Shown here: one piece after another, positions 18,015-47,079 of the stretch
Layout: each line of letters opens with the position of its first letter
How positions within the stretch are numbered: position 1 is the first letter of the stretch
Source: Candidatus Gastranaerophilales bacterium
GTDB taxonomy: Bacteria > Cyanobacteriota > Vampirovibrionia > Gastranaerophilales > Gastranaerophilaceae
Length of the DNA: 49,470 bases
Assembly: GCA_944322945.1 (NCBI GenBank)
Contig: CALUQN010000017.1
Span: 1-49,470, forward strand
Direction of reading: 5' to 3'
Notes under the pieces: generated by a model
Told to the model about the DNA's origin: nothing
The model's input: only the letters and a program-made list of their open reading frames with translations
The model's database searches: none
Made by a program: the position numbers and the translations under genes

Positions 18015-20375
18015 ATGAAAGAGTGGATTTTAAACAAATATGAGGGTAACGAAAAGTCTTTATGCGAGAGACTTTTGGCGTCACGCGGAATTACGGAAGA
18101 AAAAGATGTTTATGAATTTTTGCACCCGCTTGAAATGAAATTGACCCACCCCCGCGCTTTTAATGATATGGACAAAACTGTCGAAAGACTTGCCCGTGCA
18201 ATTGATAACAATGAAAAAATCGTTATTTACGGAGACTTTGACGCTGACGGGGTTACGTCTACTTCCGTTCTCTACAGAACTTTTAAATTTCTCGGGGCTG
18301 ATGTAAACTACTTTATCCCCGACAGAGAAAAAGAAGGTCACGGATTTGATACAAAAGCTCTTGTCAAAATTATGACTCAGGCTAAACCTAAAGTTATTAT
18401 TTCTGTTGACTGCGGAATTTCTGATGTTGATGCCGTTAATTTTATAAACAGTTTTAAAATAGATGTTATAATCACAGACCACCACGAGGCGCCGGAAACT
18501 CTTCCAAACGCTTACGCTATAATTAACCCCAAGGCGCCGAATGCCTTAAACGAAAATTTAACAGCAAAAGAGATAACAAACCTGACAGCGCTTGCCGGCT
18601 GCGGTGTTGCCTTTAAAACCGCTCAAGCGCTTCTGGAACACTACAACAAAACCTCTTATATTTATGAAATTCTTCCGTTTGTTGCCGTCGGAACCGTTGC
18701 GGATATTGTGCCTTTGATTGGAGAAAACAGATACTTTGTCACAAAAGGGCTGGAGCTTATCTCAAGCGGCAAACATTACGGGCTTAAACGGCTTTTGGAA
18801 AGCGCCGGCTACAAGATAGAAAACGGCATCTCCGCCGAACAAATTGCGTTCGGTGTTGCTCCGAGAATTAACGCGTCCGGCAGGCTCGACACTGTTGAAG
18901 AAGCTCTCAAAGTCCTAATTTCCGATAACCCGCAGGAAATTGAAATGGCCATTTTAGCGTTGAATGACTTCAACAAAGTGCGGCAAACCTTATGCCAAAA
19001 TACGTTTATGGAAGCTGACGCAATGGTTCAGGCAGAAGGAAACAGAAATCCCGCTATTATTTTATTTAACAAAGACTGGCATGTCGGAATCGTCGGGATT
19101 GTGGCATCTAAACTGATGGAAAAATATTACAAGCCGGTATTTTTGATGACGTATTCGGAAGAAACACAGCAGGTAAGATGTTCTGCAAGAAGCGTCGAGG
19201 GAATTCATCTTTATGAAGTCATAAGCGCAAATGCTGAACTTTTTGACGGGTTTGGCGGGCACTCGCTTGCGGCGGGGCTGTCGTTCTCGCCGGAAAAAAC
19301 AAGTTTTGATGCGGTAAAAGCCGCGCTTAACAAAACAATAAAAGAAATGTCTACAGGCAAAGATATTAAACCTTTTATCAATATTGATTTGGAATTGTCA
19401 CCAAGAGAAGTTGATGTTCATCTTGTGGAAGAGCTTTCCAAGCTGGAGCCGTTTGGAGCGTCTAATCCAAGCCCTGTTTTTGTGATGAAAAATTTGAAAA
19501 TAAAAGAAAAACGATTGCTCGGAGAAAACAAAGACCATTTGAGACTGAAAGTTCAGGCGGATAACGAGGAGTTTACCTGCCTTTGGTGGTCGAAAGGCGA
19601 CATTTCTCTGGTTGCCGGTGATACTCTTGATTTGGCTTTCCATCCGCAAATTAATGAATACAACGGCAATATAAGCGTTCAGCTTATTGTTGATGACATC
19701 CATTCTCCATACCTGAAAGAAGCCGAAACAAACACCTCGGGTAAGTTAAAAATTTACGACCACAGAAAAAAAACAAACATTCTGCCACAGGTAAACGATT
19801 ATGTAAAAACAACCAAACAGGATATTGTGATTTTTGCAGAGAGCAAAACCGTTCTGGATAAGTTAAGCCCGTATAAAAATCTGACAGAAAAAATAATATC
19901 CAGAGATAACCTGCGCAGCTGTGATGCGTTGATGTTGTTTGACTATCCGGCAGACAGAGTTTTGTTCGACAAAATCCTTAACGAAACTAATCCGAAAGCT
20001 ATTCATTTTATGAATTACGACATCAAATATTTTGAAGAAAAAGAGTTTTTAAAAACCTGTGCGGGAATGCTGAAATACGCGTGCAACAATAACGGCGGCA
20101 AGGTGGAATTAAAAAGATGTTCCAGTTTTTTGGGCAAACCTGTCAGAGTTTTCGAACTTCTGTTTGATATGTTTGAAGACATCGGGATGATAAAAATTAA
20201 AGAAAAACACCCTGATTACTACCTGATAGAATACATCGGAAACTTTGACCCGGCAAAACTTTTGCACGAAAAACAATATAACGAAATGATGGATTTGATT
20301 GATGAGAGCGAAGCTTTCCAGAAAAATCTTATGGAAGATGAGCTGGAAAATTTTGCGCACACTTCTGCCGTCTAA
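18015..20375 (+). CDS. recJ: Single-stranded-DNA-specific exonuclease RecJ
   Basis: This 5'-to-3' ssDNA exonuclease acts in recombination and mismatch/base-excision repair. DHH-family motifs are present: YGDFDADGVTS (near residue 72), VDCGISD, ITDHHEAPE (DHH near 154) and INASGRLDT-type sequences, then the DHHA1 region NKDWHVGIVGIVASKL, CSARSVEGIHLYEV and GFGGHSLAAGLSF. A nucleic-acid-binding OB-like part follows (DIHSPYL near residue 565). The 786-residue protein carries a C-terminal extension of about 200 residues, as in many Firmicutes-type RecJ. RBS AGGGAATA lies just upstream, and TATGAT at about 17993-17998 is a likely -10. It converges with the kinase-like gene 12 bases later. Confidence 0.93.
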   Translation: MKEWILNKYEGNEKSLCERLLASRGITEEKDVYEFLHPLEMKLTHPRAFNDMDKTVERLARAIDNNEKIVIYGDFDADGVTSTSVLYRTFKFLGADVNYFIPDREKEGHGFDTKALVKIMTQAKPKVIISVDCGISDVDAVNFINSFKIDVIITDHHEAPETLPNAYAIINPKAPNALNENLTAKEITNLTALAGCGVAFKTAQALLEHYNKTSYIYEILPFVAVGTVADIVPLIGENRYFVTKGLELISSGKHYGLKRLLESAGYKIENGISAEQIAFGVAPRINASGRLDTVEEALKVLISDNPQEIEMAILALNDFNKVRQTLCQNTFMEADAMVQAEGNRNPAIILFNKDWHVGIVGIVASKLMEKYYKPVFLMTYSEETQQVRCSARSVEGIHLYEVISANAELFDGFGGHSLAAGLSFSPEKTSFDAVKAALNKTIKEMSTGKDIKPFINIDLELSPREVDVHLVEELSKLEPFGASNPSPVFVMKNLKIKEKRLLGENKDHLRLKVQADNEEFTCLWWSKGDISLVAGDTLDLAFHPQINEYNGNISVQLIVDDIHSPYLKEAETNTSGKLKIYDHRKKTNILPQVNDYVKTTKQDIVIFAESKTVLDKLSPYKNLTEKIISRDNLRSCDALMLFDYPADRVLFDKILNETNPKAIHFMNYDIKYFEEKEFLKTCAGMLKYACNNNGGKVELKRCSSFLGKPVRVFELLFDMFEDIGMIKIKEKHPDYYLIEYIGNFDPAKLLHEKQYNEMMDLIDESEAFQKNLMEDELENFAHTSAV

Positions 20376-21389: not shown

Positions 21390-21472
21390 ATTCTTAATCT
21401 CTTGCTTATTATACCAGAAAATTATTTTTTTAAGAGCCGCCGACTGCAGAAACTCAATTTTTCACGGTTTAT

Positions 21473-21730
21473 TGTAGAAAACTCTGTAGAAAACTTTGTA
21501 AAAAGGTGTAGAAAACTTTTGAGTTTTCTACATGTTTTTCAAGGATTTTTTATAATTTTAGTTTTTATGTAAAAAACTTATAAAGTTTTCTACAATTTTT
21601 TCTACATCCAAAACTTTTGTCCAGTCAAACTTTCAGATAGTTTTCTACAAATTTTTCGAGCTTATTATTATTATTATATTTAATATATTATTATATTATT
21701 AATAAATAATAGAAAAATTGTTGTAGAAAA
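21473..21730. other. oriC: Probable chromosomal replication origin (oriC)
   Basis: Eight exact copies of the 9-mer TGTAGAAAA/TTTTCTACA occur in 258 bases: plus orientation at 21473, 21485, 21507 and 21722; minus orientation at 21524, 21586, 21598 and 21641. The 9-mer differs by one base from the cyanobacterial DnaA box TTTTCCACA. Directly after box 21641 come a small GC cluster (TCGAGC) and a 50-base AT-only tract of TTA/ATT triplets (about 21661-21711), the arrangement expected of a DNA unwinding element with DnaA-trios. dnaN follows at 21846. The identification is inference from box density, AT tract and gene context. Confidence 0.8.
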
Positions 21731-21809
21731 CTTTGAACAACAAGTTAAAATTGTTAAATTATTTTGCGGAGGTTTTGCAAATAAACTACTGCCCAAGTCG
21801 TTTTTATAC

Positions 21810-21815
21810 TATAAT
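21810..21815 (+). promoter_or_regulatory. Putative -10 box of dnaN
   Basis: TATAAT at 21810-21815 sits inside an imperfect palindrome (ATACTATAATTTAGTAT), about 30 bases before dnaN. No good -35 is seen at the usual spacing. GAGGAGTAAGGAA provides the ribosome binding site just before the ATG at 21846. The origin boxes upstream could also let DnaA regulate this promoter. Confidence 0.45.
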
Positions 21816-21845
21816 TTAGTATAACAGAATTAGAGGAGTAAGGAA

Positions 21846-22967
21846 ATGAAATTTGTTGTAAAAAAAGAGGATTTGTATAACGGTATAAAAATAGTAGAAC
21901 GTGCAACAAGTATGAAAGCATTGCAGCCTGTTCTTTTAAATATTTATATAGAAACTATTGATACATCAGCAATTAGACTAATAGCAACAGACCTTGATTT
22001 TACCGTAACAGCAGTTGTCGATGCGCAGATTGAAGAGCCGGGAAAGATAACACTGCCATCAAAAACTCTCAACGAAATCGTTTCCAAAACCGGCAACGAA
22101 TTGATTACATTCTCAATGCAGGAAGGTGAAACAATCGTAAATATAAAAGCCCAAAATTCATCATTTGATATTATCGGGATAGCCGCATCAGAATTTCCTC
22201 CGGAAATAGCAAATGTAGAACTCCACGAAGAAAATAGTTTTGAAATAGCAGTAAAACCTTTGACAAAAGCAGTAAAGCAGGCAGGTTTTGCAGCGGCAGG
22301 ATATGAAACAAGCAATCTGTTGTCCGGTATTGTCTGTGATATCCACGATGAAATTCTTGAAATTGCATCAACCGACGGTAACAGACTTGCCCGCGTCAGA
22401 GAAAAAATTATGAACAAAGACGGCTGTGCGCACCAGCTGATTATCCCGTCAAAAACTCTTAACGAATTTATTAAACTTGCTGCCTTTATCGAAGATGAAG
22501 CTGTCAGAATTTATATCGAAAAATCAAAAATTATTTTTAAAACAGAAACAACCACAACAATTTCAAGACTTCTCGAAGGTCAGTTCCCGAAATATAACCA
22601 GCTTATTCCGAACGAAAGCCCTAAAGAAGCGCTTGTCAATGTGTCAAAATTCATTTCTGCACTGGAACGTGTTGCCATTATGGTTAACGAAAAAACAAAT
22701 ATTGTTAAATTTGATTTTGCTGATAATGTTTTGACACTAGCTGCAGATACTCCAGATGCCGGAAAGTCTGAAGAACACATTGATATAGATTACACATCAG
22801 AACCTATCACTATCGCTTTTAATTACAAATTTATCCTTGACGCTCTAAAAAATATTGAAAGCGATGAGGTCAAAATAGGCTTAAATTCAAATCTTTCTGC
22901 AACAGTTCTTAAACCGAACAGCGAAGATGATTTTGTCTGCTTGATTATGCCTGTTCAAATCAGATAA
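21846..22967 (+). CDS. dnaN: DNA polymerase III beta subunit (sliding clamp)
   Basis: This ring-shaped clamp tethers DNA polymerase III to the template. The 373-residue sequence has the three-fold clamp architecture: MKFVVKKEDLYNGIKIVERA at the start, LPSKTLNEIVSK, the TDGNRLARVREK segment, IIPSKTLNEFIKL, GQFPKYNQLIPNE, and the conserved C-terminal VCLIMPVQIR. It lies immediately right of the proposed origin, as dnaN often does. Its stop overlaps the next start by one base (TAATG), so the C_GCAxxG_C_C gene is translationally coupled. dnaA is not in the window. Confidence 0.96.
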   Translation: MKFVVKKEDLYNGIKIVERATSMKALQPVLLNIYIETIDTSAIRLIATDLDFTVTAVVDAQIEEPGKITLPSKTLNEIVSKTGNELITFSMQEGETIVNIKAQNSSFDIIGIAASEFPPEIANVELHEENSFEIAVKPLTKAVKQAGFAAAGYETSNLLSGIVCDIHDEILEIASTDGNRLARVREKIMNKDGCAHQLIIPSKTLNEFIKLAAFIEDEAVRIYIEKSKIIFKTETTTTISRLLEGQFPKYNQLIPNESPKEALVNVSKFISALERVAIMVNEKTNIVKFDFADNVLTLAADTPDAGKSEEHIDIDYTSEPITIAFNYKFILDALKNIESDEVKIGLNSNLSATVLKPNSEDDFVCLIMPVQIR

Positions 22968-24339: not shown

Positions 24340-24539
24340 TTGTGTAACCTCGGAAAGGATCTGTCAAAAAAATTAAAATGGTAATCGTTTTTTGATTACC
24401 AAAGTTTGCCATCCGTATGATGTATTGCTAAAGTACGTAAATACGGTAAAATTGTTTTAAGGAATGTAAAGTTCCAAAAATAAAAAGGCAAAAATTTATA
24501 TTGACCGGTTTTAGAAGTGTAAAAGCAGGTGGAATTATT
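24340..24539 (+). promoter_or_regulatory. Long leader of the GGDEF/HD-GYP gene with two hairpins
   Basis: If transcription starts near 24345, the mRNA has a leader of about 195 bases. It can form GGTAATC/GATTACC (24380-24386 with 24394-24400) and CCGTAT/ATACGG (24413-24418 with 24441-24446). The first hairpin is followed by AAAG and no T run, so it is not an ordinary terminator. I could not match it to the c-di-GMP-I or other riboswitch consensus sequences that I know. The preceding 24233-24316 is AT-rich and holds no gene. Confidence 0.35.
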
Positions 24540-26411
24540 TTGAACGAAAACAGCAAAACTGAAGCCAAAGCCAAGACGGTAAAAAAGACATCCGCAGCCT
24601 CGCACCCGTTGAAAGCCCCGATTTCAAACCCGATACAAAAAGATGTCGGGATAGTTGAGCGTTTGAATACTCTGAACAAAAATAAAACCACCAACAGACT
24701 TTACGGCGGATACGTAAACAACCCGTCAGCAACCTCGAAAACAATAGATTACAACTCCTTAATAAGTGAATTAAACAAAAAATTATACGACAAAAACACA
24801 TCAAATGAGCTTTTCGGTATATTCCATGACACGTTGTGTTCAAAGTTAAACTGTGAATATACCGCGTTTGGGCTTTATCATGAAAAATCAAAATGTATAA
24901 ATTTAAAATTGACCGACAAACTTGGGAGCAACTTTTCCCTAAAGATTTTCATGTCAGATGACAAAAATCCGGTGGTGGAATCTTTTAACAAGGTTGCACC
25001 GGTCAGTGTCAAAGATAACAAGTTTTTGAAAATACCGTTTGCAATGGAGTCAGGTGCATTGATTCTTCCGCTGGTTTCTGTCAAGAATTGCATAGGTGTT
25101 ATGATTCTCGGCAAAAATAATTTGGATGATAATAAGGACTTATTTTCATTTTTGTCAAATTATGCAGCAATGTTTGTGCACAATTTGGATTTGATAGAAA
25201 GAACAAACAAATACGCAAACACGGATAATTTAACCTCGCTGTATAATCACAGAGGTTTTCAGGAGATACTTAAAAACGAAATAGATAACGCAGAAAAAAC
25301 ATCAACAGATTTATCAATCATAATGTTTGATGTAAACAATATTTCCAAAATCAACAGAGAGCTCGGGCACGCCAAAGGTGATGAAGTCATCAAGCTGCTT
25401 GCGGAAAAAATAAAGCAGAATATACGTTCAACAGACAAAGCCGGCAGATACGGCGGCGATGAGATAGCTGTAATTTTGCCGAATACAAACACTGCAGACG
25501 CAAAATATCTTGCAGAATATATTACATACTGTTTATCTTGCTGTTTTATTGATGATGTAGGACCTGTCAAGGTTTCCGTCGGGATTTCCACATATCCTGA
25601 ATGTACAAAAAATCAGGAAAAATTACTCATACTTGCAGAGCAGGCAATGTATATTTCGCAGGCAAAAGGCTATAAAGAAGGAATGTCTGCAATCATCAGT
25701 TCATCAGATTTTAATTTCTGGGATGATGTAGCGCTTGATTCTTTTGCGGAAGTTCTTGCAAAACGTCATTCGCAAATAGGTATAAATTTTGAAGAAGAGC
25801 TTGTCCATAAGTTCACAAACGAAAAAATAATATCCCAAAACCACCTGATAGAAATGGTAACATCACTGGCAGGCGCAATAGATGCAAAAGACCCTTATAC
25901 AAAAGGTCATTCTACATCGGTTTCAAGATACTCGGAGGCTCTGGCTCGTTCATTGAATTTGCCGGAAGAAGAAGTTCAGCGGATAAGATTGGGCGCACTG
26001 CTGCATGATGTCGGAAAAATCGGAATTCCGGAAAATGTGTTGAAAAAGCCGGACAGATTGCTGGATGATGAGTGGGAAATAATGAAGCAGCATCCTGTTA
26101 TCGGTGCAGAAAAAGTTTTGCAGCCGAATGAAGCCTTGCACGAATTTATCCCGATAGTAAAATACCACCACGAGCACTATGACGGAACAGGATATCCGGA
26201 AAAATTAAAAGGTGAAGAGATACCCTATGCGGCAAGGATAGTATCAGTAGCAGACGCGTATCACGCCTTGATAAGCGACAGACCTTACAGAAAAGGAATG
26301 AGCGTTGAAAAAGCCTGCGAAATTTTGAAAATGGGTTCCGGAATACAGTGGGATCCGGATTTAGTCAGACAATTCATAACGATTGCGCCCTCTCTGTCGA
26401 CTATAATATAA
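24540..26411 (+). CDS. GAF-like/GGDEF/HD-GYP cyclic-di-GMP regulator
   Basis: This is a cytoplasmic signalling protein of about 623 residues. Domains in order: a low-complexity Ala/Lys-rich head; a GAF-like region (about 100-215, LCSKLNCEYTAFGLYHEK to VMILGKNNLD); a GGDEF domain (TDNLTSLYNHRGF to YGGDEIAVILP near residue 304, with I in place of F); and an HD-GYP phosphodiesterase domain (HDVGKIGIPENVLKKP near 487, HEHYDGTGYPEKLKGEEIP near 545). It could both make and degrade c-di-GMP or use GGDEF as a sensor. I chose the TTG at 24540 because AGGTGG (24527-24532) lies 7 bases upstream. It stands alone. Confidence 0.9.
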   Translation: MNENSKTEAKAKTVKKTSAASHPLKAPISNPIQKDVGIVERLNTLNKNKTTNRLYGGYVNNPSATSKTIDYNSLISELNKKLYDKNTSNELFGIFHDTLCSKLNCEYTAFGLYHEKSKCINLKLTDKLGSNFSLKIFMSDDKNPVVESFNKVAPVSVKDNKFLKIPFAMESGALILPLVSVKNCIGVMILGKNNLDDNKDLFSFLSNYAAMFVHNLDLIERTNKYANTDNLTSLYNHRGFQEILKNEIDNAEKTSTDLSIIMFDVNNISKINRELGHAKGDEVIKLLAEKIKQNIRSTDKAGRYGGDEIAVILPNTNTADAKYLAEYITYCLSCCFIDDVGPVKVSVGISTYPECTKNQEKLLILAEQAMYISQAKGYKEGMSAIISSSDFNFWDDVALDSFAEVLAKRHSQIGINFEEELVHKFTNEKIISQNHLIEMVTSLAGAIDAKDPYTKGHSTSVSRYSEALARSLNLPEEEVQRIRLGALLHDVGKIGIPENVLKKPDRLLDDEWEIMKQHPVIGAEKVLQPNEALHEFIPIVKYHHEHYDGTGYPEKLKGEEIPYAARIVSVADAYHALISDRPYRKGMSVEKACEILKMGSGIQWDPDLVRQFITIAPSLSTII

Positions 26412-28128: not shown

Positions 28129-31041
28129 ATGTTTTTTTATGCGGATTTACATATACATTCAAAGTATTCACGCGCAACCAGCAAAAGTTGTAATCTCGAA
28201 GAGCTGGCTCAGTGGGCGCAGAAAAAAGGTTTGAGCGTAATTTCAACAGGTGATTTTACACATCCTTCTTGGTTTAAAGAAATTCAGGAAAAATTAATTC
28301 CGGCTGGTGCCGGTGTTTTCCGCCTCAAACCTGAAATTGAAAAACAAGTTCTAAATCCGGCAGGCAATCCTGTATATTTTCTTCTCTCCGTTGAGATTTC
28401 GACAATCTATAAAAAAGGTGATAAAACCAGAAAAGTACACCACGTATGTTTTGTGCCTGATATGCAGTCTGCCGGGAACTTCAGAAACAAACTCGGCGCA
28501 ATAGGCAACATAAACTCAGACGGACGACCTATTTTAGGGCTTGATTCAAGAAATCTTCTGGAAACAGTTCTGGAATCCGGCGAAAATTCTTATATCATCC
28601 CTGCGCACATTTGGACCCCGTGGTTTTCAGTCCTCGGGTCAAAGTCAGGGTTTGATTCGATTGAAGAATGCTACGGTGACCTTGCAGATAACATTTTTGC
28701 CGTAGAAACAGGGCTTTCTTCTGATCCGGAAATGAATTGGAAAGTATCAAAACTTGACAAATTCCGGCTAGTGTCAAATTCTGACGCGCATTCGCCATCA
28801 AAGCTTGCGCGGGAAGCTACTGTTTTTGATACAAATCCTGATTATTTCAGTATTATGAATGCACTCAAAACAGGCGACGGATACGTCGGCACGGTTGAAT
28901 TTTTCCCGGAAGAAGGCAAATACCACGAAGACGGTCACAGAAAATGTAATGTCTGTCTGACACCGGAAGAGACAAAAAATTTAGGCGGGATTTGTCCTGT
29001 CTGCGGCAAGCCGCTTACTATCGGAGTGTCATACAGAGTTCACGAACTCGCGGATCGTCCGTTTAATTCTGATTTTATACCGGAAACAGGCGGAAAAGTT
29101 TTCAGCCTCGTTCCGCTGCAGGAAATTATATCCGAAGTTCTGCAAGTCGGTACCTCCAGCAAATCTGTTGTCACGGAATATGAAAGACTTATCCGTAAGC
29201 TCGGCTCAGAACTTTCCATATTGCAGGATGTCCCGCTTGATGAAATTTCAAAAGAATCGACCCTTCTGGGTGAAGCGATTACCAGACTGCGTGCGGGAAA
29301 GGTTATCAAACAAGCGGGGTACGACGGTGAATACGGTGTCATTAGATTGTTTGATGACGGTGAATTAAACAAGAAAAAATCTACTGTTAACCTTAAACTT
29401 AATATTGAAATTCCTGACGCTCCCAAAAACAAAACAACAAAAACATGGACGGTTCCAAAAGCTGTCATGGAGATTACATCACAGACCCATAAATACAAAA
29501 AAGGACTTGATGAATATCAGCAGGCTGCAGTTGAAAATTCTTCAAACCAAATTTTAATAATAGCCGGGCCGGGTTCAGGAAAAACAACCGTTCTGACCCG
29601 AAGAATTGCCCATCTGATAAATGACTGTAATGCCGCGCCCGAAAACTGTCTTGCGATTACGTTCACCCGCAGGGCGGCAGAAGAAATGCGCCAACGATTA
29701 GCACTGCTGGTGCCTGAAAAATCATCCAAAATTAATATTCACACATTCCACTCGCTCTGTTTTGCAATCCTTAGAGAAAATTACGAAAACGCCGGACTGG
29801 ACAAGAAATTTTCTGTCATAAGCGAGCAGGAAAAATCCCTCTACACTGCAGAGGAACTTTCTGAAAATATGATTACTTTTGACGACTTGATTACACTGAC
29901 AGTCAAACTGTTTGAAGAGTATCCGGAAATCAAATCCTCGTACCAAACCCGTTATAAATATCTGTCAGTTGACGAGTATCAGGATATTGACGAAAACCAG
30001 TATAAACTTATACGTCAGCTTGCGCCGGAAAACGGCAATATCTGTGCAATCGGCGACCCAAATCAGGCAATTTACGGGTTCCGCGGCGGCAGTTCTAAAT
30101 TCTTTAATAATTTCCAAAACGATTACAAAAATGTAGAAATAATTAACCTGAAAAATAATTATCGTTCGACAGAAAGTATCGTAAACGCCTCTAACCAGAT
30201 GATTGACTGCTATACAACAGTATCACAATACGTTAAAAGCTCCGAAAAAATTACCATTCACACAGCACCGACAGACAAAGCAGAAGCTGAATTCATCGTA
30301 AGTTCAATAGAAAACCTCATAGGCGGACACAGCTTTTTCTCAATAGATTCATCACGTTCAGAGGGGCAGTCGGAAGATTATTCTTTTTCGGATTTTGCTA
30401 TACTTTACAGAACATCTTCCCAGCTTAAACCGATAACGGAAGCCCTGGTGCGTTCCGGCATGCCGTTTGTGAAACTTTCTGACGATATGTTGTGTGACAA
30501 AAAATCTGTAAGAACCATATTGAAAAATTTGACAGATGCAGAGCCTGTCAATGAACAGCTTGAACACCTGCCGCCGGATGTCGCCGAGGGGATTGAAGAT
30601 TACATAATGAAATATTTGAAAAAACTTGCTCAAGAAAATCCAAACAGGGCGGACTTTATCCACGAAGTTTATTTGACAAAAGAATCAGACACACTGGACG
30701 CCCGTGCGGACAGAATTTCGTTAATGACGCTGCATGCATCAAAGGGGCTGGAATTTCGTTGTGTATTTATAGCCGGCTTGGAAGACGGAATTTTGCCGTT
30801 ATACCGCGTGCAGACCCCGGAGGAAGTTGAAGAAGAGCGGCGGCTTTTGTATGTCGGAATGACGAGGGCAAAAGAGCGGTTATTTTTAAGCCGAGCAGAG
30901 AAGAGATTTGTCTACGGCGAGAAAAAATCACAGGGGATTTCACCGTTTCTTGCAAAGATAGAAAACGACCTTTTGACCTTATCAAAATTTGAGCGGGCAC
31001 ACGAAGAAAAAGACAACACCAGCCAGCTGAGTTTGTTTTGA
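28129..31041 (+). CDS. Fusion of an EndoQ-like PHP nuclease and a UvrD/Rep-type helicase
   Basis: The 970-residue protein has two parts. Residues 1-400 match the PHP-domain EndoQ family: YADLHIHSKYS (metal His), STGDFTHPSW, PAHIWTPWFS, LVSNSDAHSPSKLAREATVFD and a zinc site CNVCLTP...CPVCGKP near 272-295. EndoQ cleaves 5' of uracil, hypoxanthine, xanthine and abasic sites. Residues of about 450-970 are a superfamily 1 helicase: Walker A IAGPGSGKTT near 478, TFTRRAAEEMRQRL, IHTFHSLCF, VDEYQDIDENQYKL, GDPNQAIYGFRGG, NNYRST, MTLHASKGLEF and RLLYVGMTRAKERL. The helicase is about 200 residues shorter than UvrD, mainly between motifs Ia and II. RBS AAGGAG lies 8 bases before the ATG. A role in repairing deaminated bases is inference. 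Confidence 0.88.
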   Translation: MFFYADLHIHSKYSRATSKSCNLEELAQWAQKKGLSVISTGDFTHPSWFKEIQEKLIPAGAGVFRLKPEIEKQVLNPAGNPVYFLLSVEISTIYKKGDKTRKVHHVCFVPDMQSAGNFRNKLGAIGNINSDGRPILGLDSRNLLETVLESGENSYIIPAHIWTPWFSVLGSKSGFDSIEECYGDLADNIFAVETGLSSDPEMNWKVSKLDKFRLVSNSDAHSPSKLAREATVFDTNPDYFSIMNALKTGDGYVGTVEFFPEEGKYHEDGHRKCNVCLTPEETKNLGGICPVCGKPLTIGVSYRVHELADRPFNSDFIPETGGKVFSLVPLQEIISEVLQVGTSSKSVVTEYERLIRKLGSELSILQDVPLDEISKESTLLGEAITRLRAGKVIKQAGYDGEYGVIRLFDDGELNKKKSTVNLKLNIEIPDAPKNKTTKTWTVPKAVMEITSQTHKYKKGLDEYQQAAVENSSNQILIIAGPGSGKTTVLTRRIAHLINDCNAAPENCLAITFTRRAAEEMRQRLALLVPEKSSKINIHTFHSLCFAILRENYENAGLDKKFSVISEQEKSLYTAEELSENMITFDDLITLTVKLFEEYPEIKSSYQTRYKYLSVDEYQDIDENQYKLIRQLAPENGNICAIGDPNQAIYGFRGGSSKFFNNFQNDYKNVEIINLKNNYRSTESIVNASNQMIDCYTTVSQYVKSSEKITIHTAPTDKAEAEFIVSSIENLIGGHSFFSIDSSRSEGQSEDYSFSDFAILYRTSSQLKPITEALVRSGMPFVKLSDDMLCDKKSVRTILKNLTDAEPVNEQLEHLPPDVAEGIEDYIMKYLKKLAQENPNRADFIHEVYLTKESDTLDARADRISLMTLHASKGLEFRCVFIAGLEDGILPLYRVQTPEEVEEERRLLYVGMTRAKERLFLSRAEKRFVYGEKKSQGISPFLAKIENDLLTLSKFERAHEEKDNTSQLSLF

Positions 31042-45141: not shown

Positions 45142-47079
45142 ATGGGAATGGCGGCATCACAAGCTAGGCTGTTGAGTTTAACGACACGGCTGACAAATAA
45201 TGAATTCCGTTCGCAAATGGTTGCAAACAGTAAAATGCGACTTGCGAACGAAACTCAGTATGCAAGTGATGAGTACATGGAAGCCTTGAATGCTACCAAG
45301 TTAGAGTATGTGTATTATGATGCAAACGGGAAACAAACCTCCTACAACCTGACTGCGAATACGATTTATACGTATCAGTCATTGAAAAATCAGTACGGGC
45401 TTGTGGACAGGGCAGGCAGACTAATAGTCAGCAACCTTGACGGAACAAACTTTGAAACAAGCGATACTATGAGCGAGTTTTTGCAGAAATACGGTATTCC
45501 TATGACAGACAACCCTGCATACGAAAACCATTTGAGAGACATTTACGGCGCTAATTACGAAGACTGGTTTAACAAAGACAACAAGGAAGAATGGTACGGC
45601 AAAACCAACGATGCCATAGATCCGAACTTCACAAATATGGGTTCTCAAGACTGGGATACCCTGACAGAAGCCGGCTGGGACGCATTGGTCAACAACCATA
45701 ACAACGGCTTGAACGATTTGAAAAACCAGTTTGGCGGCAAAACACCGGAAAACGCATACGGCAATTGGCTGGATGCACTGTCAGATCCGCCTGATTTTGT
45801 AGAAAAACCGCCGGAACCTGTTTATCCGCCGTTTGTCCCTCCGGTCAAACCGCCTTACCCTGACCTGATTGACGAAGCTATGGGGCTGATTGCACCTGCT
45901 TGTTGGGAGGGTACAGGTATTACAGGTAACCTTAGAAATGATAAAAATAGTAATAATGATACAAACACTTGGCACATTGAACACGTTTTATCACAATATT
46001 TGTGGTCACCAAATTCAAGTGATACTAACTATGCTAGTGGTGGTACAATAACGGTTACTATAAACGGAAAGACTCAAACCATAACTAATGACCCTGGACA
46101 GTGGGCTATGTCTTCAGGAGGTGGTAACGGTGATGACCCGAAAGACGTTCGCGGGATATTAGCAGATCCTGCAAACGCAGAACTTAGAAAAAATTTGGAA
46201 GTATTGTATTATGAAGTTTGTAAAGCTATTGATGAACGTAATATTAATAGAGGGTTAACATCAGGTTCTATTACTACAGACGGAACGCCTGCAAAATCGT
46301 CTGCTGAAATTGGTGCAGAATACTATGACTTGATGTTGGAATTGTTAACACTTGTTGCAGAACAGGATCCTAATTTCATGCAGGATTATCAGGATAAGTG
46401 TGACCAGATTGATGCTGCTTATGAAGAAGAATACAATAAAAAGCACCAGGAATGGGAAGAAGATTGCAACGAAATCAGAGAAGAATATCAGGATGATTTG
46501 AAAGACCACAACAACAGCGTTCAAGAAATTAAAGACTGGCTGGAAGAATGCGATTCTGCCGAAAAAGTTTATAAAGACCTGATAGACAGCATTCCGCCGG
46601 AAGAAATCCCTGATGAAACACACGAAAAATACGACTGGTACACAAACCTCTGGCACAGAATGAACGGCGAAAGCGAAGAAAAAGCACGTAAAGAAGAACA
46701 ATCCTACACCATTTTGGATGACAATTTGTTGAATAGCCAGGAATGGCTGAAATTCGCGCTTGAAAGCGGAGCCGTTACACTTGAACAGGTAAAATTTGAA
46801 GAGGATCCAGAAGACGGAACCGGCATAGAAAATGCTGAATGGACAGAAACAGTTTGGTCATCAACCCCTGATATAATAGAAGTTGAAGACACATTAGCAA
46901 TCACAAAAGCCGAAGTTAAATACAATCAAGCTCTGCGCGATATTCAGGCAAAAGACAAAAAATATGACAACGACATCAAAAAATTAGACACAGAGCATAA
47001 CGCATTGCAGACAGAATACGATTCAATCAAGAGCGTAATGGATAAAAACATGGAACGTTCATTCAAAGCATTCTCATAG
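45142..47079 (+). CDS. Large helical-ended protein of unknown function, lineage-type N-terminus
   Basis: The 645-residue protein begins MGMAASQARLLSLTTRLTNN, an N-terminus I associate with proteins of non-photosynthetic gut Cyanobacteriota; no named family is known to me. It has no signal peptide. Residues 1-75 are helical; a central part is Asn/Gly/Pro-rich (PEPVYPPFVPPVKPPYPDL near residue 230; GGTITVTINGKTQTITNDPG); residues of about 415-480 are strongly charged coiled coil (YEEEYNKKHQEWEEDCNEIR); and the C-terminus is a long helix (NALQTEYDSIKSVMDKNMER, SFKAFS). Paired terminal helices around a variable core recall axial proteins of flagella and type III systems, but that is only an analogy. 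The start at 45142 is preceded by GAAAGGAT (45122-45129). Confidence 0.65.
   Translation: MGMAASQARLLSLTTRLTNNEFRSQMVANSKMRLANETQYASDEYMEALNATKLEYVYYDANGKQTSYNLTANTIYTYQSLKNQYGLVDRAGRLIVSNLDGTNFETSDTMSEFLQKYGIPMTDNPAYENHLRDIYGANYEDWFNKDNKEEWYGKTNDAIDPNFTNMGSQDWDTLTEAGWDALVNNHNNGLNDLKNQFGGKTPENAYGNWLDALSDPPDFVEKPPEPVYPPFVPPVKPPYPDLIDEAMGLIAPACWEGTGITGNLRNDKNSNNDTNTWHIEHVLSQYLWSPNSSDTNYASGGTITVTINGKTQTITNDPGQWAMSSGGGNGDDPKDVRGILADPANAELRKNLEVLYYEVCKAIDERNINRGLTSGSITTDGTPAKSSAEIGAEYYDLMLELLTLVAEQDPNFMQDYQDKCDQIDAAYEEEYNKKHQEWEEDCNEIREEYQDDLKDHNNSVQEIKDWLEECDSAEKVYKDLIDSIPPEEIPDETHEKYDWYTNLWHRMNGESEEKARKEEQSYTILDDNLLNSQEWLKFALESGAVTLEQVKFEEDPEDGTGIENAEWTETVWSSTPDIIEVEDTLAITKAEVKYNQALRDIQAKDKKYDNDIKKLDTEHNALQTEYDSIKSVMDKNMERSFKAFS

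Follow-up and report, generated by a model that had tools for sequence, protein, structure and literature searches.

The window, as the whole 49,470-bp stretch analysed here is called, comes from a member of the Gastranaerophilales (Vampirovibrionia or "Melainabacteria"), non-photosynthetic relatives of the Cyanobacteria; among named records, its DnaN is nearest to those of Candidatus Gastranaerophilales MAGs, at 94-97% identity. The proposed oriC is held in a 456-bp intergenic region (21390-21845) of 24% G+C. Eight exact copies of the 9-mer TTTTCTACA fall within 258 bp (21473-21730) of this region, in both orientations and upstream of dnaN, and 50 bp of A and T only lie beside the boxes, as in the AT-rich unwinding elements of bacterial oriC (Table 1). 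This tract starts with TTATTATTATTATTA, directly after the box at 21641-21649 and a 12-bp spacer. Farther along the window, two proteins were interpreted by eye: one of 636 aa (24501-26411) has a GGDEF-like and an HD-GYP-like part, and one of 970 aa (28129-31041) combines an N-terminal PHP-like part with a UvrD-type helicase.

Table 1. Features of the proposed origin and its neighbours, in window coordinates; offsets are counted from the predicted BUS box.
Feature	Position	Strand	Basis or remark
recJ, single-stranded-DNA exonuclease	18015-20375	+	annotation
Left neighbour of the origin, 333 aa	20388-21389	-	without Pfam or NCBIfam match
Predicted DnaA box 1, TTTTCTACA	21473-21481	-	exact match
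Predicted DnaA box 2	21485-21493	-	exact TTTTCTACA; -156 from BUS box, conserved place
Predicted DnaA box 3	21507-21515	-	exact TTTTCTACA; -134; left half of conserved inverted pair (17 bp start to start)
Predicted DnaA box 4	21524-21532	+	exact TTTTCTACA; -117; right half of conserved inverted pair
Predicted DnaA box 5	21586-21594	+	exact TTTTCTACA; -55; present in most relatives
Predicted DnaA box 6	21598-21606	+	exact TTTTCTACA; -43; 12 bp after box 5
Predicted BUS box (box 7)	21641-21649	+	exact TTTTCTACA; adjoins proposed unwinding tract
12-bp spacer, AATTTTTCGAGC	21650-21661	+	consensus AATAWTNNNRGC; exactly 12 in 33 relatives
Five TTA repeats (3'-AAT-5' DnaA-trios on opposite strand)	21662-21676	+	sequence, conservation
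50-bp A/T-only tract, proposed DNA unwinding element	21662-21711		sequence
Predicted DnaA box 8	21722-21730	-	exact TTTTCTACA; beyond AT tract; this genus only (L002, L032, L034)
dnaN, DNA polymerase III beta clamp	21846-22967	+	TIGR00663, 271 bits

The cluster lies far above chance and is unique in the draft genome. When the 456-bp intergenic region was shuffled 2000 times with dinucleotides preserved, TTTTCTACA appeared 0.02 times on average and at most once, and 9-mers with at least two G/C never exceeded three copies. Elsewhere in the window, TTTTCTACA occurs once, at 45798. The draft genome of this MAG (2.1 Mb in 35 contigs, 98.6% complete) contains 67 copies, the 59 outside the cluster being scattered, and a search of all 35 contigs found no second cluster. 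According to the first-pass annotation, a richer cluster in another place, for instance at dnaA, would tell against an origin here. The draft genome holds none; the dnaA contig, which differs from that of the window, has a single TTTTCTACA about 28 kb from dnaA, with no cluster at dnaA itself. By our own reading, dnaA lies on C10, flanked by an RNA methyltransferase-like gene and ruvA. Counts at dnaN of three possible alternative boxes, TTTTCCACA, TTATCCACA and TTATCTACA, gave no copy or a single one of each, and these words were rejected. The same annotation had called the locus a strong origin signature, citing eight perfect 9-mers in 258 bp and two orientations, an adjoining AT-only triplet tract and a position upstream of dnaN; each element was recovered at the positions in Table 1, and the interpretation is supported.

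The elements next to the tract resemble the Bacillus subtilis BUS, which comprises DnaA boxes 6/7, a GC-rich spacer and DnaA-trios. By its published definition, a BUS has a DnaA box and, no more than 16 bp away, at least three trios whose central base is A (3'-NAN-5'); spacer lengths peak at 10-13 bp (PMC8287927). In the window, five TTA triplets stand 12 bp from the box, an arrangement shared with 33 relatives. The likeness to B. subtilis extends to the box, the short spacer ending in GC and the presence of at least three 3'-[G/A]AT-5' trios, with a spacer length inside the published range. Unlike in B. subtilis, the box by the spacer is single and perfect rather than tandem, the spacer is mostly AT with a terminal GC, and the origin is not beside dnaA. 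Judged on sequence, the box-spacer-trio order is the published BUS layout, and its 12-bp spacer fits the published peak.

Conservation in relatives is exact to the base, bearing out the earlier view that box, GC cluster and TTA triplets fit a BUS/DnaA-trio arrangement. When 34 box-spacer-trio matches (the window and 33 relatives) were aligned and numbered from the box beside the AT tract, boxes recurred at -156(-), -134(-), -117(+), -87(+), -55(+), -43(+) and 0(+), within a base or two, and the inverted pair kept its 17-bp spacing from start to start. The spacer after the last box ends in GC in the 33 relatives and is followed by (YTA)3-6. A scan for TTTTCTACA-N6-20-(YTA)3 matched 96 of 239 family genomes, mostly with a 12-bp spacer; when any base was allowed at box positions 5-6 but the spacer had to be 12 bp long, matches were found in 102 of 228 genomes, and TTTTCTACA was dominant among those with an AAT...GC spacer. 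No boxes were confidently identified around dnaN or dnaA in families f3, f6 and f8 of the class. In one relative, L066, the entire origin is turned round with respect to dnaN, its trios facing away from that gene and its spacings largely kept. Separately, four copies of TTTTCTACATTKCCGCTTATTATTA repeat every 201 bp exactly, close to the end of a contig in G174 (C7:64-691) and away from the origin.

The module is found immediately upstream of dnaN in the window and in most close relatives, and DnaA is a known transcription factor. The boxes might accordingly be a DnaA-controlled regulatory region of dnaN, with the origin elsewhere. The position of the module is not fixed, however. It lies 1.4 kb (L034) and 2.4 kb (L058) upstream of dnaN, 3.8 kb downstream of the dnaN start in L068, 0.3-0.7 kb from the dnaA 3' end in genus g30, between divergent dnaA and dnaN in genus g35, and between dnaA and dnaN, the classical place, in families f2 and f7. 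In genus g25 it is 80 kb from dnaN (L087; G059:C2:41171 and C2:120794). Since the module, trios included, can adjoin dnaA, fall in the dnaA-dnaN interval or stand 80 kb from dnaN, a dnaN promoter element alone would not account for it; judged by these gene contexts, boxes and trios move together as one element. Moreover, we know of no part played in promoter control by an extended AT tract whose trios keep an exact distance of 12 bp, which also counts against dnaN regulation. The g25 module of L087/G059 mixes two boxes, with five copies of TTTTGAACA and four of TTTTCTACA.

GC skew was computed on stretches of relatives' contigs; the organism's own genome consists of 35 unordered contigs, for which the curve would be uninterpretable. 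In G238 (480 kb), the best contig tested, cumulative skew is lowest at 273,730, which is 90 bp from the centre of the cluster, whose boxes span 273,556-273,720. On shorter contigs, the distance from cluster to minimum is 7 kb (G195), 8 kb (G058) and 22 kb (G035). A 740-kb stretch of G154 displays a double minimum: the curve drops to the cluster at 314 kb, where there is a local minimum, stays low until 490 kb and then rises, with a slightly deeper global minimum near 490 kb, 177 kb away. In G059, dnaN sits on a steadily rising skew arm and the module, 80 kb off, on a low plateau. The window has no minimum at 21.6 kb, although in this 49-kb contig, too short for the purpose, gene orientation dominates the skew, and its own curve was dropped as support for that reason. 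A skew minimum far from the boxes had been named at first pass as evidence against an origin here; G238, G195 and G058 speak for the origin, and the global minimum of G154, that of G035 and the window's own curve speak against it. Overall, the skew favours an origin within or close to the cluster, without amounting to proof for the window's own species. The missing minimum in the window speaks for regulation of dnaN, but with the arrangement in G059 and no competing cluster in the genome, that explanation is very unlikely.

Taken together, the evidence indicates that 21473-21730 is very probably the chromosomal oriC, with BUS architecture, of this Gastranaerophilales bacterium. The seven to eight TTTTCTACA boxes, which keep fixed spacings, would be bound by DnaA. 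From the box at 21641, DnaA placed by the 12-bp spacer may then pass to the TTA/DnaA-trio tract at 21662 and bind it in single-stranded form, and the AT-only region would be opened for helicase loading, as at a BUS-type origin.

The box itself departs from known ones. Position 6 is T in all eight copies, which places them outside the canonical TTWTNCACA, with its C at that position. The 9-mer core of the E. coli and Firmicute box TTATNCACA is shared at positions 1-2, 4 and 7-9, whereas the box here has T at position 3 and T at position 6, which is base-specific in E. coli. In the E. coli DnaA box, position 5 has no base preference and the other eight positions have one (PMC5295017); the T at position 6 is therefore a change at a read position. 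The dnaN-linked oriC of cyanobacteria (Synechococcus elongatus type, TTTTCCACA) is close in layout, with a cluster of TTTT-type boxes just upstream of dnaN and dnaA elsewhere; the S. elongatus oriC lies near dnaN (PMC7198777). A one-base difference from the cyanobacterial box, as noted at first pass, was borne out: TTTTCCACA is the box upstream of dnaN, in 5-6 copies, in three of five Cyanobacteriia genomes examined. It differs from the box here in having C rather than T at base 6, and the cyanobacterial DnaA has Asp rather than Lys at residue 433.

Base-specific contacts of DnaA domain IV are made by R399, P423, D433, H434, T435 and H439 (PMC7561715). When the window organism's DnaA was aligned to E. 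coli DnaA domain IV (structure 1J1V), only two of these six residues, R399 and H434, were retained; the other four are changed (P423E, D433K, T435P and H439Y). A recognition-residue change to match the C-to-T difference had been predicted, and D433K is such a change. Given that the 9-mer departs from the standard box in a base that is read specifically and that DnaA binding here is predicted, it might be asked whether another protein, such as a dedicated repressor, binds these sites instead. This is scarcely credible, as position 6 is the sole change from the cyanobacterial box, the sites are arranged as in a BUS, and DnaA residue 433 changes along with the box.

Residue 433 and the box letter can be followed across the class. 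Residue 433 is Asp in the Cyanobacteriia whose DnaA was read and Lys (rarely Arg) in most Vampirovibrionia, where TTTTCTACA is the box of families f1, f2, f4 and f7. It is Asn in one f1 subclade (genera g3, g22, g27 and g36), in which TTTTGCACA appears. Nine origin-region windows examined in that subclade contain zero copies of TTTTCTACA, with C at position 6 instead. The Asn group forms one clade on the DnaA tree, except for a single Thr member, so residue 433 has undergone about two independent changes. The pairing of D with TTTTCCACA, K with TTTTCTACA and N with TTTTGCACA thus corresponds to about two tree changes and is not independent replication. A TTTTCTACA module in G202 (genus g36, Asn type; C5:64623) was set aside as a likely stray contig: it has a 30-mer identical to one in g14 (G123), and the bin is rated 3% contaminated. 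Other unusual recognition motifs occur in the DnaA of L331, L334, L337 and L293 (KRHQT, KKHQT, RKYTT and RGNSS, respectively). L301 (G240, family f3) and L284 have a Gln433 DnaA (GGRQHST) and three TTATCAACA near dnaN, possibly a further box variant.

The box T6, in place of C, and Lys at contact residue 433, in place of Asp, may have changed together, with residue 433 setting base 6. The putative contact makes chemical sense: Lys would act as a donor towards T6, where Asp would act as an acceptor towards C6. A natural DnaA-box specificity switch in the Vampirovibrionia is, on balance, moderately likely: Asp433 would have changed to Lys with C6 to T, and Lys later to Asn, with a return to C6 (TTTTGCACA), in one Gastranaerophilales subclade. 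A competing account accepts the oriC but treats the DnaA residue changes as unrelated drift, the standard box still being preferred. With only about two changes on the tree, with some Lys433 genera also using TTTTGAACA, so that position 6 is not strictly T, and with other contact residues varying too, such drift is possible, although doubtful: the change affects a contact residue and falls on the tree at the level where the box changes, and the Asn subclade has lost TTTTCTACA from the origin regions examined and has C at position 6.

The locus is thus a very probable oriC, known in kind but with a DnaA box specific to the lineage, together with a candidate natural specificity switch in DnaA. 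A literature search found no origin work on this uncultured class. The origin itself is of an ordinary kind in a little-studied class, and the paired change of box and initiator is a target for specialists to test. With this layout, oriC can be mapped to the base in many gut species, a prerequisite for estimating growth rates from read depth; searches with standard DnaA boxes would miss these origins. The natural series of D, K and N at residue 433 provides a test of joint change in an essential initiator and its binding sites. If the switch is real, a single contact would have been the site of co-evolution between initiator and origin, and the two would be exchangeable parts with which a DnaA-box code could be tested directly.
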